Source: Rhizodiscina lignyota
Taxonomy: Eukaryota > Ascomycota > Dothideomycetes > Aulographales > Rhizodiscinaceae
Reading direction: 5' to 3'
Length of the DNA: 64,000 nucleotides
Assembly (NCBI GenBank): GCA_010015805.1
Contig: ML978138.1
Span: 372,001 to 436,000, forward strand
Below, one piece after another: positions 45,976-52,760 of the stretch. Under the pieces are notes generated by a model, which searched no databases, was not told the DNA's origin, and saw nothing but the letters and a program-made list of their open reading frames with translations. Both the position numbers and the translations under genes were made by a program. Within the stretch, counting starts at the first letter, position 1; each line of letters begins with the position of its first letter.

Positions 45976-47469
45976 TCATATGATAACAAACGTCTCTTCT
46001 GGGAATTCGCCTTTCTCGTGCGCATCCATTGCCATCTGCTTTGTTGTGTCGTTCAGGTAGCATGGGCCGATCAGCGTGTACTTAGTATCAGCTGACTCAT
46101 CCGAGCGTAGCATGTGCGGTAGTTCGGCATCGGGAAAGAAACAGCAGATGTCCCCTACTTTCGTCATCCCTGGGCCTAGGCCAATATATCCGTTGCTGCA
46201 CACGAAAAGACGTCTCTTTCGGGCGCAACTCACAGCCCGCAAGGTGAAGTGGGAGTAATCCGCCGGGCTAGGGTGGACTTCGTCTTGGATCTCCGCTGGG
46301 AGACTGTCCTTGTCAAAATCGGAAACTAAGTGCTCGAATTCTTGAATCCATTTTATAAGGCAGGGCTTTACATCGGTAAGTTCGAAGTGGGCGAATTGCG
46401 CTATCATAGTGAGAGCCAGCGATTCCAACAAGTCATCATACACAGACGAGCCAAACTCTTCGCGGTGCAGGCGCCGCAAGGTATCGATGAATGGGTTCTT
46501 GGTCTCCCATCCCGAGCGCTTGTGGGGCTCTCTGACAAAAACGTCGTTTCTTCTGATCGATGCCGACACATGGGACACGGTGCCAAGTTTGAAGCCTTGG
46601 GCATGCAGCTCAGTTCGATCGCGGATTGAAAAGTGGTAGCCTGGTTTTCTTCTGGGAGATTCACGAAACGGAGAATTCGGCTGCAGTTTGGACTGTTGAG
46701 TTTCATTCCATTGCGGACACCAGGACGGGCATTTGCTTTCTGGTGCGTCTCCAGTGCAAACCCCAGCGAAGGAAAGCAGGTTCAGCGTCTGCCGCGTTTG
46801 TAACCATGAGATGGCAAAGTCAAGGTATACATCCTCAATGGATTTGGTGTAGTCAGGATGGATTGTTGTCGCTAGCAGCGGATGCGCGAGAAAAGCATAA
46901 ATGTAGTCTCGTGGGTTTGATGCCTTGTACTTTTGTCTTGCGCAGTCCAGAGCGAATAGAAACGCTTCGGAGTGTCTCATCCATTCTGTCGCCTGGCGAT
47001 GGCTAATGTCGTAAGATCTCCACATGACGCCGGACGTAAGTCTGGGCACATCTCGATACTCGTTCTCAATCCTAAGAGCATATCTCTTATGGCTTCCAAA
47101 GAAATACAGGACCTCCATGAGGTCTCTCCAGTCCAGCCTGTGTTCGCCGTACAAAATAACCGCCTCATCGGCGAGCCCTACTTCCTGGACGGTCCACGCT
47201 CTAGAAAACCACGGCATTCGTGTCATGCGGTCCAGAGCCTCCCAATTCAGCGATGCGAACTCTGATTCGGGGTCGTTGATTTTCAAATTCACCTCCGGTC
47301 CGTACTCGTGAATCAAATGGATCAGCTTCTGGACGGATTCGATCGCCAGGTGGGCATCGCCATGAACGTCCGGTCCGACATGAATGAGCACCCGCACAGC
47401 AGCTTTGTAGATTTCACCCATATGAAATACCTGATGACTGCGCTCTTTAACGTTGATTTGCTCGATGCA
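45976..47469 (-). pseudogene. HET-domain gene, 3' part (split by insertion)
   Basis: The open frame enters from the edge of an inserted element and continues EQINVKERSHQVFHMGEIY, MPWFSRAWTVQEVGLADEAV and NPRDYIYAFLAHPLL to FVII and a stop at 45976. This is the second half of a heterokaryon-incompatibility (HET, PF06985) domain plus the usual long variable C-terminus. The domain's first half (the SYVWG block) is missing here and lies at 52144-52760 in the same orientation. An ATG at 47511 in frame is inside the element and so is not the native start. The remaining 496 codons are undamaged, which suggests a recent insertion. HET proteins act in nonself recognition between fungal individuals. 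Confidence 0.88.
47465..47469 (+). repeat. target-site duplication, left copy (ATGCA)
   Basis: Direct repeat ATGCA immediately outside the left terminal inverted repeat; the same five bases lie at 52144-52148. One copy is needed to rebuild the HET reading frame. Confidence 0.8.
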
Positions 47470-47485
47470 TATCGCAACGAAACAT
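47470..47485 (+). repeat. left terminal inverted repeat
   Basis: TATCGCAACGAAACAT; its core GCAACGAAACAT matches the reverse complement of the right end at 52126-52137. The match fades after the core. Confidence 0.75.
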
Positions 47486-48549
47486 GAGCGCGGCAACCAA
47501 GTCCATTTCATGTGCCATTACCGCTAGTCCCATTTTAGACGTAAAGAAACATGACTAAGTGCATCGTAATTACCTGACTGCGTCTCCTCTGAACGCGTGA
47601 GATTGTCTAAATCGAAATTCTATTAGCAATAGATACCCCAAAGTTTATTCATTAATTACCGCGAGCTCCCTAACTAACGAATTTATACCTTACTACTATA
47701 TTAGAGTTCTAGAGTCAGCATCGAGTAGCAGATAATTGGCGAAAGTCTACCCATCTACCGGCTCATTCCTAGTTGAAGAGACGTGTTTGGCGACGGGTGT
47801 AGCTGCGTCAATGACGTGAGCTATTTCAGCGTACATAGATTGCGGTTGTTCATGCTTTGAGCTTGCGAATTTGTCACTCATTTCCTAGAAATGACTGATC
47901 TCATTTACCCTCGAAAGGGGCAAGTGCTGGAAGTCTGGTGCCTTTCCTGCTGTAATCCTCATCTTTCCAGCATAGATGTACTCCTCAGTTAGTCAAAACC
48001 CCGACACATTTCTGTAGTAACGATCACGAAACCTTTGGCCGGTTAGGACCTCAAGACAGCAAAATCCGGCAAGGCAAAGTTCAGCTGTCATGAATGCATG
48101 CAGACTTGCATTTGATGACAGCGACTTTCTTCTGAAATGTGGCTATAATAGGGTGAGACTTTTATTTTGGACGAGCCAGTTCCTGCAAGGAATCGAGAAC
48201 ATCGCTGCTTTAGTGGCGAGGTATACTCTATTCTGAGACCATACGGAGCAGTTTCTATTCCAATGGACCCGTAATCTTGTTTCATCTGCTTCTACGACAA
48301 CCCAACCTTGTTTCCATATTCAGCATCCGAGCTCATAGCTTCCCCAGATCACCGCACTCTTTTCATATCCCCAAGGTCTTTGATGGCTGCTTCCCCTCTC
48401 CTCACATCAGTCTTTCGTCAGACGACTCCATAGATATCTGCAGAAGATATTGTGTCTGAGAAAATTGTCATGTTCATCTCGGACTGGCAGCCGTAGCTAT
48501 CTTTAGCGAATGTAGGCGAAGTGGAGAGGAACTCTGAATGCGACTACGG
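47486..48549. other. left arm of the element, noncoding
   Basis: AT-rich in its first half, with no ORF over 65 codons that looks real. The end of the arm is the promoter side of the large FNNEQ gene. Confidence 0.5.
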
Positions 48550-48558
48550 TATATAAAG
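48549..48558 (+). promoter_or_regulatory. TATA box of the large FNNEQ gene
   Basis: GTATATAAAG lies 141-150 bases before the ATG at 48699 and is followed by an A/C/T-rich leader (TCATTCAGAAAAACAAAAC). This is a strong core promoter by fungal standards, so the gene is probably expressed under some condition. Confidence 0.6.
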
Positions 48559-48698
48559 AGTTGAGACGATGCTAAGGAAACCTTCTCTTCATCGGCTCAT
48601 TCAGAAAAACAAAACTAATACAACCTTTTCGTTATTTTTTTCCATTTTATTCCCTTTTCCCTAGCTCCTAGATTCTAATACTAGTCCAGTCATTCAAG

Positions 48699-49889
48699 AT
48701 GAAGGTTTCCGTGTCAGTTGCGATCCTCGCGTTCTGCGCTGCTCTCGCTGTTGCCACGCCAGTCCCGTCTACTAGCGGCGAGCAAGGATTGACCAAGCGC
48801 GGTTTTGGCTTCGAAAATTTCAACAACGAGCAGGACGGTGGCCGCGGCGATAACTTCAATAACGAGCAGGACGGCGGCCGAGGCGATAATTTCAATAACG
48901 AGCAAGACGGTGGCCGCGGCGACAACTTTAATAACGAGCAAGGACTCCGCAAGCGCAGCAGGGACAACTTCAACAACGAGCAGAGCGGCAGCGGCCGCGG
49001 CGACTTCAACAACGAGCAAGGCGGCAGCGGCGATAACTTTAACAACGAGCAAGAGGGTGGCCGCGGCGATAACTTTAACAACGAGCAAGGAAAACTCCGC
49101 AAGCGCAGTAGGGACAACTTCAACAACGAGCAGAGCGGCAGCGGCCGAGGCGACAACTTCAACAACGAGCAGAGCGGCAGCGGCAGCGGCGACAACTTCA
49201 ATAACGAGCAGAGCGGCAGCGGCAGCGGCGACAGCTTCAACAACGAGCAGAGCGGCAGCGGCAGCGGCGACAACTTCAATAACGAGCAAGGCGGTAGCGG
49301 CGACAACTTCAACAACGAGCAAGACGGTGGCCGCGGCGATAACTTCAACAACGAGCAAGGAAAACTCCGCAAGCGCAGCAGGGACAACTTCAACAACGAG
49401 CAGAGCGGCAGCGGCCGAGGCGACTTCAACAACGAGCAAGGCGGCAGCGGCGATAACTTTAACAACGAGCAAGAGGGTGGCCGCGGCGATAACTTCAATA
49501 ACGAGCAAGGAAAACTTCGCAAGCGCAGCAGGGATAACTTCAACAACGAGCAGAGCGGCAGCGGCCGAGGCGACAACTTCAACAACGAGCAAGGCGGCAG
49601 CGGCGACAACTTCAACAACGAGCAAGAGGGTGGCCGCGGCGATAACTTCAACAACGAGCAAGGGAAACTTCGCAAGCGCAGCGACTTCTGCAGCAACTTT
49701 AACAACGAGCAGATTATGCCGGTCCCCTCTTACGTTTACAAAAAGTTCCCCACCTTCAAGGGCTACTATTTGGTGCACGCCTCTGCCACCGCCACCGCCT
49801 CCGCCTCCTCAATCGCCGACGATTCGTTCAGCAACTTCCAGTCATCGGGAGGAGATGGGCAATCGTTTAGCAACGTACAGATCAACTAA
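48699..49889 (+). CDS. secreted FNNEQ-repeat protein with Kex2-type sites
   Basis: Single exon, 396 residues. MKVSVSVAILAFCAALAVAT is a clear signal peptide, followed by a TPVPSTSGEQGLTKR propeptide-like stretch. The body holds 24 copies of FNNEQ, mostly as D-N-FNNEQ with linkers GGRGD, SGSGRGD, SGSGSGD or GGSGD. Six Lys-Arg sites (LTKR, GLRKR and four GKLRKR, the last before SDFCSN) would let Kex2 release peptides of about 4, 4, 7, 4 and 4 repeats plus a C-terminal domain. That domain has one Cys, an aromatic stretch (YVYKKFPTFKGYYLVH), an Ala/Thr/Ser run and ends FSNVQIN. Composition is almost devoid of hydrophobic residues in the repeats. I know no named family. Kex2-processed fungal repeat proteins include repellents and pheromone or RiPP precursors; here the role is open. 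Confidence 0.88.
   Translation: MKVSVSVAILAFCAALAVATPVPSTSGEQGLTKRGFGFENFNNEQDGGRGDNFNNEQDGGRGDNFNNEQDGGRGDNFNNEQGLRKRSRDNFNNEQSGSGRGDFNNEQGGSGDNFNNEQEGGRGDNFNNEQGKLRKRSRDNFNNEQSGSGRGDNFNNEQSGSGSGDNFNNEQSGSGSGDSFNNEQSGSGSGDNFNNEQGGSGDNFNNEQDGGRGDNFNNEQGKLRKRSRDNFNNEQSGSGRGDFNNEQGGSGDNFNNEQEGGRGDNFNNEQGKLRKRSRDNFNNEQSGSGRGDNFNNEQGGSGDNFNNEQEGGRGDNFNNEQGKLRKRSDFCSNFNNEQIMPVPSYVYKKFPTFKGYYLVHASATATASASSIADDSFSNFQSSGGDGQSFSNVQIN
48820..49715 (+). repeat. coding minisatellite (33-42-nt units) of the FNNEQ gene
   Basis: Tandem units around AACTTCAACAACGAGCAA with GGCGGC/GGTGGC linkers and a higher-order block of about 210-320 bases punctuated by CTCCGCAAGCGCAG (the LRKRS site). Neighbouring higher-order blocks are nearly identical, which points to recent unequal exchange. 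The repeat keeps other frames open, producing long antisense and shifted ORFs that are not genes. Confidence 0.8.
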
Positions 49890-50684
49890 TTTTGAAGCGC
49901 CTGATTGTCTCGCCTTAGCTGCTGGCGTGAAGGAACTGCAGCACGTGTGGATTTTGGTGAAATCTCTATGTTGTCTTCTTGCTTATGTGGAGCATTTGCG
50001 GTCACCGTTGCATGTCAATTGCCTCATCTTGTTTGACTTTCTCATTGTTTTTATTCTGGGCTTCCGACTTCAGCCACTCATTCTACCCGACCTCAAAAAG
50101 GCTCGCGGAAAGTCGATCTGATCTTTGCGAGTTCTGGCTTTCACGGATAATAAAATTTAAATACCATAATGCTTTCTTGAACATAGACAACGATCTTATT
50201 TGACCAGGGAGAATGTTCGAGTGAACGACTAGGTGTAAGGTCGACTGGTGGACCAAACAGAAAATCTGTTAGAAGACTGAGTTAAGGGTTAGGAAGCTAA
50301 GTGAGGTTTCTTAACGGTAGATCGAGGCCAGATTTTTCGGCTTCCGAGAGGGTACTCTAAGATCGATTTTCGGAAGCTTGTTGGCGCTTAAATTTCGTTT
50401 CTGTCTGAGAATGTATAAATTTACGAGAGTTACTAACGTCAGTAATGGAAATGTATTCATACAACACATTGAGAGTTGCTGAAGCTATGAATCAACAATT
50501 AAGAGTAGCTTCAATGCCTCCATAATGTCCGACCCGAAAGGGACTACCTATCTCAGCGAGCGATAGGAGTTTGACTTAGTCGCCAAGAAGATCAAGAACT
50601 TCAAAAGCACGACAATGACTTCGGAAATTCATCGTGAAATCTCAACGATCTAATTGGACTATCGCTGAAAGCTCAGCATGCTAA
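49890..50684. other. middle of the element, noncoding
   Basis: 3' region shared by the two convergent cargo genes. No convincing ORF; moderately AT-rich. Confidence 0.5.
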
Positions 50685-51152
50685 TTACATTATTACCTCC
50701 TCAAGTGCCTCTTCCAAATCCCTATCAATGATGCTCACGTTGTTGCCATCACCGATCTCGGTGACAGTATTCGTAGTTTTCCCGCTGTTATGGTCGCTGA
50801 TGGAGACGTTGTTTCCATCCCCATCGATATTGACATTGTTGGTGTCGTCGCCGCAGTTGCCATCGCTAATAGATACATTGTTGGCATCGCCCTTGGTACT
50901 GACATTGTTTGTAGTCGAGCCCTTCTTGTTGCCAGAGCAGGTCTGGCCCCCAGTATTTCCATTGTTGACTTGAGTGTTGCTGATTTGGGTGCCACCACTC
51001 CCGTCTCCGCCCTGTTCGTTGTTGAAATTGTCGTTGCCGCTTCCGCCATTGACTTGAACATTTGAGATTTGTTTCCCATGACGCGGGAGTGGGGCGGCGC
51101 CGACGAGGACAATAGCAAAGAAGCTTGCAGTGAGGATGCTAGTGAAACGCAT
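50685..51152 (-). CDS. small secreted protein with FNNEQ and NNVSI repeats
   Basis: Single exon, 155 residues, start MRFTSILTASFFAIVLVGAA, a signal peptide ending near APLPRHGK. Next is KQISNVQVNGGSGNDNFNNEQ, which joins the SNVQ[IV]N motif (found at the C-terminus of the larger cargo protein) to one FNNEQ copy, then a variant ISNTQVNNG. The second half repeats a roughly 17-residue unit with the core NNVSI or NNVNI followed by D-G-[DN] (GDANNVSISDGNC, NNVNIDGDGN, NNVSISDHN, NNVSIIDRD), reminiscent of short beta-solenoid repeats. Two Cys are present (GQTCSG and DGNCGD) and could pair. No dibasic sites. The shared motifs say that both cargo genes belong to one family or system. Function unknown. 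Confidence 0.82.
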   Translation of the reverse strand: MRFTSILTASFFAIVLVGAAPLPRHGKQISNVQVNGGSGNDNFNNEQGGDGSGGTQISNTQVNNGNTGGQTCSGNKKGSTTNNVSTKGDANNVSISDGNCGDDTNNVNIDGDGNNVSISDHNSGKTTNTVTEIGDGNNVSIIDRDLEEALEEVIM

Positions 51153-52125
51153 CTTGATTGTATTAAACAATAATTGTAGAGAAAAACGCCGCAAAAGAGT
51201 GACTTGTGAGATCCGAAATTCCTAGAGATTGCGCCTTTGAAAACTACATAAGAGGGTAATGTTACGCTTTAAATCTCTGGGAGGGGGGAAAATCCTTGTG
51301 CTGCTTACTGCGTGTTGCGGCGGTGTGCCCGTAATGCTAATAAAGCCTTCTTGCGAGTTCCTCAAATAGCCCTAAGCCCAAGGCCTTACGTATGGAAGGT
51401 CTAAGAGAACTCGTAAATTGCTCACCATGTATTACTCAACTTAGATCACCTACCCCGTAAACAGAGATTTGGTAAGGACCCATCTAGTCAGAAAATATTT
51501 ATAGCTATTACGGTGTATGACAGGGCTTGTATTACCGCATCCCGGTAACTGCATTAACTCCGTCAAAACTACGCGCCCTACCCCTCTTGTCTGTAATCGA
51601 CGTCAAAGAGTGTGTCATTTGAGTGCTTTGTTACAAAAGATTCTGAAGGTAAAGATCTACACTAAGAACGCCCGTGGCGAATATACACAGTTCCCGATCG
51701 GGAACACCCGGGCCGGATAAATCTATTTCCGGTCCCGTCATCTGAAATCGTGTTCGTGCACCTTGTTCACAATTCAAAGATATCGAGGAGGTCACGTGAT
51801 GCTGGTCGCACACGCGAATTTTCGAAAGCCTACTCCTCTATAATTAGCGTATATATAAGTATAAAAAGTAGATAGATACGCGTAGAAAGGCTTGACTTGA
51901 AATCAAATAGAGCGCTTTTCTCGAATTCAGTCGTGGGCGATTATCATAGAGTTGTAAAATAGAGCATGACCAAAAATTTGAAGAATTTGATGGGGGTTCG
52001 CAGGCTAATTAGGTAATAACTAGCCTAAAGGAATTGTCCTTAGGTAGGATAACAGCGGCTTTTCGACTTGGTGAAACCCCTTAAGAACCTAAGGTATAAA
52101 CCTCATAGATATGAAGTAAGTCATT
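51153..52125. other. right arm of the element, noncoding
   Basis: Promoter side of the small FNNEQ gene, then AT-rich DNA (TATATATAAG near 51850) up to the right inverted repeat. No ORF recognised. Confidence 0.5.
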
Positions 52126-52143
52126 ATGTTTCGTTGCAAATAT
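52126..52143 (-). repeat. right terminal inverted repeat
   Basis: Plus-strand ATGTTTCGTTGCAAATAT, the inverted partner of 47470-47485, directly followed by ATGCA. Confidence 0.75.
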
Positions 52144-52148
52144 ATGCA
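52144..52148 (+). repeat. target-site duplication, right copy (ATGCA)
   Basis: Second ATGCA, adjoining the right inverted repeat; on the minus strand it is the TGCAT of the codons for Cys-Ile in DAICI. Confidence 0.8.
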
Positions 52149-52760
52149 GATGGCGTCTGCCCACAAATCAAGCGCTTGTGAAGTGCTTCGGATCCGCCGA
52201 AGAGCCACTTCGAGAGTCTTTGTGATTTTTAATTTGCAACCATTGCAGAGGATTTCGACGCTGTCGGAAACGTTCCCCCAAACGTAGGAAATAGCTTGGT
52301 AGTCTGGTCCCGCGCTCGTCCTTTCGATGCGCAGATCGCATTTGATGGGATCGTCTCGTTGGCCTGGATATAGTCGAACAATACGAATGGAGTCCTCATA
52401 TGGAAGCGCCTGATAGACGGATTTCTCCCCACTCGAGAGTGTGGAGAGTGTGGAGAGTGGTTCCCTAGAAGCATGTTCCGCGATGTTCAGCCTTGCCAAT
52501 TGCGGGACATTCTCGCCGCGACCTCCAGTCGTGTCACCATCTTGCTCTCGTCTCGAAAATGTCCCCTTGCTGAACGATAGGAGATGCCCGAAGGCCGAGC
52601 AGACTTTCTGTATCATCAAAATGTCTTTAATATGCAGAATTGAAGACGAGATGCCGTGGGACGTTACACGAGGCTGTATATATTGACTGCCTTGAAAGCT
52701 GCGCCACGAATGGCTTGAGGCTAACCCGTCATAGGATTGCATCCATGTCGCGCCAGGCAT
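52144..52760 (-). pseudogene. HET-domain gene, 5' part (split by insertion)
   Basis: The frame starts at ATG 52760 (MPGATWMQSYDG; later ATGs are possible starts) and runs 205 codons. It contains YQALPYEDSIRIVRLYPGQ, DYQAISYVWGNVSDSVEI and ALDLWADAICI, the canonical first half of a HET domain (ISYVWG, LWADAICI). After DAICI the frame runs into the element and adds YLQRNIMTY and a few more codons before a stop at 52089. The second half of the domain lies at 45976-47464. The break point, orientation and phase all fit one gene cut by the element. Confidence 0.88.

Follow-up and report, generated by a model that had tools for sequence, protein, structure and literature searches.

A probably non-autonomous TIR element carrying two secreted-type genes interrupts a HET gene, and related ends on two further contigs lie at the same codon of other HET genes

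The window analyzed here, a 64-kb stretch of contig C18 (C18:372001-436000) in a genome of 33.4 Mb and 29 contigs, contains a 4674-bp element that is bounded by terminal inverted repeats (TIRs) and splits a HET-domain gene. Ends related to this element abut the same codon of other HET genes on two further contigs. Taken together, our results indicate that this is probably a low-copy, non-autonomous TIR cargo element that is moved in trans and integrates at the conserved Cys-Ile codons of HET genes. Its landing site in HET genes is its most interesting feature. The element, its ends, and the interrupted gene are located as follows.

47470..52143, no strand: mobile element of 4674 bp, with TIRs, a flanking direct repeat, and an interrupted HET frame
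47465..47469, plus strand: direct repeat ATGCA, left copy
52144..52148, plus strand: right copy of the direct repeat ATGCA (read along the HET gene it is TGCAT, within the Cys-Ile codons)
47474..47485, plus strand: core of the left terminal inverted repeat, GCAACGAAACAT, 12 nt
52126..52137, minus strand: core of the right terminal inverted repeat, GCAACGAAACAT, 12 nt
52149..52760, minus strand: interrupted HET gene, N-terminal half, matching Pfam HET positions 1-57 (E 4e-10; submitted as 52140-52760)
45979..47464, minus strand: interrupted HET gene, C-terminal half, matching Pfam HET positions 55-146 (E 2e-13; submitted as 45979-47472, including the direct repeat and three element bases)

Exact copies of GCAACGAAACAT occur only twice in the 64-kb window, at the two element ends, and this 12-nt core is the only sequence that the left and right ends have in common. 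An inverted match of 12 nt between the two 40-nt boundary stretches was never reached in 4000 mononucleotide shuffles (maximum 10), nor in about 4000 random pairs of window stretches (maximum 11). The element boundaries are also independently supported, because the open frame of the HET gene breaks at the same points. When up to 2 mismatches were allowed, the core gave 9 matches in the window versus 6.2 expected, and the bare 12-mer gave 8 matches genome-wide versus 6 for the reversed control, showing no enrichment. Since it lies at the genomic background, the 12-mer alone is useless for finding relatives, and only the longer right end identifies them. These results bear out the TIR core and the 5-bp duplication described in the initial annotation, with ATGCA present on both sides of the element. 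That description was sound with respect to structure, and the interruption of the HET gene and the same-codon ends on two other contigs were absent from it.

In the window copy, the Pfam HET domain was detected on both sides of the element, which thus splits a HET-domain gene. The two halves are still open over 207 (N-terminal) and 498 (C-terminal) codons as submitted, suggesting that the insertion is recent. The HET family governs self/non-self recognition in fungi and is not known outside filamentous ascomycetes. It is large in this genome, with at least 153 matches to Pfam PF06985 (150 of the 217 candidates scored), and its size indicates that the genome is fungal.

Comparison of the whole element with the genome gave five partial matches besides the element itself, namely the right ends on C3 and C4 and three stretches on C1. 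The parts of the element with relatives elsewhere are listed below.

52072..52143, plus strand: conserved right end, with related copies at C3:288122-288193 (86% over 73 nt) and C4:70756-70820 (85% over 66 nt)
51771..52062, no strand: 292-bp segment, 76% identical to C1:3847985-3848275
51588..51721, no strand: 134-bp segment, with similarity (85% and 79%) to two places where contig C1 begins

A weaker copy of the right end is present at C11:958423. When up to 3 mismatches were tolerated, the 27-nt right-end pattern was found at 4 places (C3, C4, C11, and C18), and its reversed control at none. Similarly, an inner 24-nt right-end pattern recovered C3, C4, and C18 (control 0), and a 16-nt end pattern, for which 1 mismatch was allowed, occurred at 5 places, 3 of them exact (C3, C4, and C18; control 1). 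Another pattern, giving 6 places (control 1), already contained HET-side bases and was not used as evidence, and a further candidate end at C4:2318351 (3 mismatches) was rejected by eye. The 28-nt left-end pattern matched only the window copy genome-wide at up to 3 mismatches (control 0), and no full second copy of the element was found in the genome. The genome-wide search for relatives by their ends, as called for in the initial annotation, therefore returned right-end relatives on C3, C4, and C11, and neither a second left end nor a second full copy. The recurrence of the right end elsewhere in the genome supports the view that the flanking repeats are not coincidental. Both ends are known for the window copy alone, and the direct repeat is therefore seen only there. 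A search of about 8.4 kb inward of the C3 and C4 ends revealed neither the left core (up to 1 mismatch) nor a C-terminal HET half, so these ends may be truncated relics. Thus, the element has the inverted terminal repeats, the direct repeat at an interrupted target, and the dispersed related right ends by which DNA elements are recognized.

At three of the four right-end copies (C18, C3, and C4), the end directly adjoins the N-terminal half of a HET gene, a different gene each time but always at the same codon of the W-x-D-A-I-C-I motif. The frames that run into the end in the HET direction read WADAICI (C18), WIDAICV (C3), and stop-IDQICI (C4, in which the W codon is a stop). The junction falls within the Cys-Ile/Val codons in all three cases, with the cores TGCAT, TGTGT, and TGTAT, respectively. 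The HET fragment on C3 has a frame break, and that on C4 has stops and a frame break, indicating that both are decayed HET genes. When 32 HET queries were used in tblastn, the best E was 3e-4 for the C3 flank (in two pieces) and 3e-5 for the C4 flank. TGCAT (15) or TGTAT (7) stands at the target codon in 22 of the 26 HET sites parsed. These sites came from 30 fetched HET loci (27 sites listed, one false match dropped; 4 loci without a site), and the C3 core TGTGT was unseen among them. The preference for the HET codon is drawn from three copies (n = 3). The 33.4-Mb genome has about 150 such sites, and by our informal estimate it would not be credible for three insertions to have landed at this codon by chance.

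The C11 end also has TGTAT at its junction, and no HET sequence was seen by eye across about 200 nt of its flank. In addition, a near-match at C12:340502 has no HET at its end, and the C-terminal part of a HET protein matches weakly about 0.8 kb off. These two ends indicate that the targeting of HET genes is at most a preference. At C10:174217, a candidate end with one mismatch follows W-A-D-T-I-S-F; a search of its surroundings gave no HET similarity, and it was not counted as a HET copy. Eleven part-model HET matches were also read at their breakpoints. None of them was among the exact 12-mer matches, and by eye they resembled introns, frameshifts, or divergent parts.

Outside the two cargo genes, 27 stop-to-stop frames of the element reach 42 aa or more, and the ten longest of these were scanned. 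No transposase domain was recognized in the two cargo proteins or in these ten frames, in agreement with the earlier claim that the element carries no transposase. The scan of the ten frames gave two weak matches, with E 0.04 and 0.19; both fell far short of the cut-off and were to families unconnected with transposition. Since no enzyme was recognized in the element, it was most likely moved in trans. In the mechanism that we favor, the short inverted repeats would bound the element, the two secreted-protein genes would be its cargo, and a recombinase or transposase encoded outside the element would move it. Integration would occur at one spot of HET genes, the Cys-Ile codons of W-x-D-A-I-C-I with the core TGYRT, which is repeated on both sides in the window copy. 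The target would be recognized by its HET-coding sequence, of which this large and conserved gene family would supply many copies. With regard to the enzyme, the element ends fit both a DDE transposase and a Starship-type tyrosine recombinase.

A possible, though less probable, reading is that of a miniature Starship relative that lacks a captain, or of a Crypton-like element, moved by a tyrosine recombinase from elsewhere. ATGCA would then be a shared core and not a repair duplication. This reading is a rival with respect to the enzyme and is compatible with HET targeting. The available part of a study of A. fumigatus reports that 19 of 20 curated Starships have direct repeats of 2-12 bp and 18 have TIRs, and that the Osiris elements target multicopy 5S rDNA (PMC12153272). 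The core TGYRT is present at all four right ends (C3, C4, C11, and C18). However, the same source gives the size of Starships as 20-700 kb, a range of which the 4.7 kb of this element falls far short. The genome-wide search for an enzyme, which covered captains (DUF3435) only, found this domain on C2 alone, with a single captain over the cut-off (C2:2387634-2388940) and a weak captain relic at C2:1464181. No matching element end was found within the 5.2 kb read around the captain at C2:2387634-2388940, and a Starship link through it was rejected because the ends are not shared.

We therefore filed the element as a TIR-bounded non-autonomous cargo element, which is neither Dada, because the duplication length and the target differ, nor a Starship, because it has no captain. 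Dada DNA transposons, in the partial text available, insert at fixed sites in snRNA and tRNA genes, have a DDE transposase, and are flanked by 6-7 bp duplications, and the inverted repeats of the U6 and U1 families are sub-terminal and not terminal (PMC3706591). The element described here is similar to Dada in its fixed insertion site in multicopy conserved genes and its short flanking repeat. It differs in having a protein-coding target, a 5-bp repeat, terminal inverted repeats, and no transposase recognized in the scanned frames. A TIR core downstream of the HET target site, as reported for Dada, was found with at least 8 of 10 matches at 3 of the 26 sites versus 2.0% of 806 neighbouring windows, a signal too weak to use. 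With Starships, especially the 5S-rDNA-targeting Osiris, the element has in common short direct repeats, TIRs, gene cargo, and a preferred target that is multicopy and conserved. However, Starships are described in the excerpts of PMC12153272 as elements of tens to hundreds of kb that have a captain recombinase, whereas this element is 4.7 kb and captainless. ToxhAT/ToxTA, a 14-kb element with 74-bp TIRs and a TA duplication that is nested in a Starship, is likewise a fungal TIR element that is proposed to be non-autonomous and has a secreted-protein gene aboard (PMC12506042). The accessible portion of that report describes no target-gene preference for ToxhAT/ToxTA, whereas the element here lies at a HET codon.

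The occurrence of one codon on three contigs might also be explained by descent. If one HET gene with an old insertion had been copied to C3 and C4 by segmental duplication, the same codon and the same orientation to HET in three copies would follow trivially, with no preference involved, and an ungapped comparison of C18 and C3 still finds 38 of 80 positions alike on the HET side. We consider this explanation unlikely, because a joint duplication of the HET gene and the end would leave both sides about equally alike, whereas in each of the three pairs the element ends are better conserved than the HET flanks next to them. For C18/C3, C18/C4, and C3/C4, ungapped matches on the HET side were 16, 15, and 18 of 40 and 25, 22, and 22 of 60, respectively, compared with 34, 27, and 28 of 40 and 40, 35, and 44 of 60 on the element side. 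The end common to C3 and C4 extends over about 96 nt versus about 18 nt of HET motif. Moreover, among the 32 HET queries, C3 best matches the window HET gene, and C4 matches only a different HET query, L021. Independent insertions at one target site thus appear, from these alignments, to be a better reading than duplication.

It is very improbable that the insert is an oversized introner or intron. By eye, introns do seem to be present between IC and I of the motif in two other HET loci, L062 (C4:382410) and L067 (C1:2193860), and in L065 (C3:650420) and L066 (C8:1602270) they seem to precede that point by a few codons. In addition, the junction at C3 and C4 reads GTATAT. However, the window copy has no GT at its junction, is 4.7 kb long, and has two genes inside, and no HET continuation was found beyond the C3 and C4 ends. 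Least tenable of all is the idea that coincidental inverted repeats flank an ordinary resident locus of two secreted genes, which could draw on the unenriched bare 12-mer and the unique left end, but the HET frame is cut at the repeats, the 12-nt match is beyond chance, and the right end recurs, leaving only an assembly error to rescue it.

The cargo of the proposed non-autonomous element consists of two genes.

48699..49889, plus strand: secreted-type gene for a KEP-like repeat protein of 396 aa, with a signal-type N-terminus judged by eye, 6 KR sites, 24 FNNEQ units, and 11 RGD
50685..51152, minus strand: small secreted-type gene for a protein of 155 aa, with one FNNEQ, N/G/S/T-rich NNVSI-type repeats, and a signal peptide judged by eye

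The initial annotation had recognized two secreted-type genes with a common motif vocabulary, and this was confirmed. The genes are convergent, FNNEQ is present in both, and the motifs SNVQIN and SNVQVN occur as well. In the 396-aa protein, the 6 KR sites delimit five segments (four of 50-52 aa and one of 90), followed by a 69-aa tail, and each segment contains 4 or 7 FNNEQ subunits. KEPs are recognized by at least three similar repeats separated by KR, and the five similar segments between 6 KR sites agree with this. Judged from its sequence, with the signal peptide assessed by eye, the protein fits the in-silico KEP layout as given in the available text of PMC6339444. Similar to the KEPs in the portions seen of PMC6339444 and PMC7329392, it has a signal-type N-terminus and repeat units split by KR sites; unlike them, its units are long and contain FNNEQ subunits, and its gene lies on a mobile element. 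The main texts of these two papers contain no word beginning with "transpos" or "horizontal". A Kex2-processed precursor reads better than a surface repeat protein, and Kex2 would release secreted peptides from it. Of the earlier description of the cargo as surface or secreted repeat genes, the secreted type was retained, and the surface alternative was set aside for the larger protein. The 11 RGD tripeptides of this protein stand in GRGD contexts.

Within the gene at 48699-49889, the DNA coding for FNNEQ varies at three of the five codons, and every change is silent. This may be a sign of selection, and the evidence is modest because the count took exact FNNEQ words. Near-FNNEQ words in the 396-aa protein were FSNFQ and FSNVQ only, both within the tail. 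The FNNEQ-coding word had 29 matches genome-wide (control 3), of which 25 were within the element. The 4 words outside the element were isolated pentapeptides in unrelated frames when read, and were regarded as chance words and not genes. No match to the 396-aa or 155-aa protein was obtained in the Pfam scan or in NCBIfam, and a PDB sequence search with the 155-aa protein gave no relative. The AlphaFold model of the 155-aa protein is strand-rich and of low confidence (mean pLDDT 51), too poor for a fold search. A literature search on FNNEQ returned nothing related. Neither cargo protein matched anywhere in the genome besides the element, and no FNNEQ genes were found in the genome outside it. 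These results give no support to the proposed intragenomic spread of a secreted trait, and the expectation that FNNEQ genes elsewhere might be flanked by the TIRs found no case beyond this element.

Strict target choice by DNA elements is already known for multicopy RNA genes, as far as the excerpts of PMC3706591 and PMC12153272 describe it. If a mobile element prefers a single codon block in a large protein-coding family for self/non-self recognition, an expanded immunity-like family would serve as its landing ground. HET targeting would account for some HET gene loss, and this element would illustrate how a putative secreted-peptide gene can travel as cargo. Among the papers listed by full-text searches, mostly outside subscription papers and preprints, none dealt in its title or abstract with insertion of elements into HET genes or with Starships together with HET. 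More speculatively, and in our opinion improbably, the family might home to DAIC(I) HET codons, lower the incompatibility barrier through disruption of allorecognition genes, and thereby ease passage from strain to strain via hyphal fusion, with the gene for a Kex2-processed peptide that it carries benefiting the recipient. If this were true, the family would be a protein-coding-gene counterpart of rDNA-homing elements, and the choice of target would serve the element's own transmission.

Several open frames were observed beside the related sequences. About 230 bp inward of the conserved right end on C3, a long open frame on the minus strand (L051:6735-8168) resembles a cytochrome P450 by eye and is possibly cargo of an older element. 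Inward of the C4 right end, a small secreted-looking open frame on the minus strand (L053:7198-7689) is also possible cargo. The relatives of the 134-bp segment (51588-51721) at the start of C1 are perhaps subtelomeric, and beside the stretch of C1 related to the 292-bp segment lies low-complexity repeat coding sequence rich in A/S/Q/P (L057:6335-6874).
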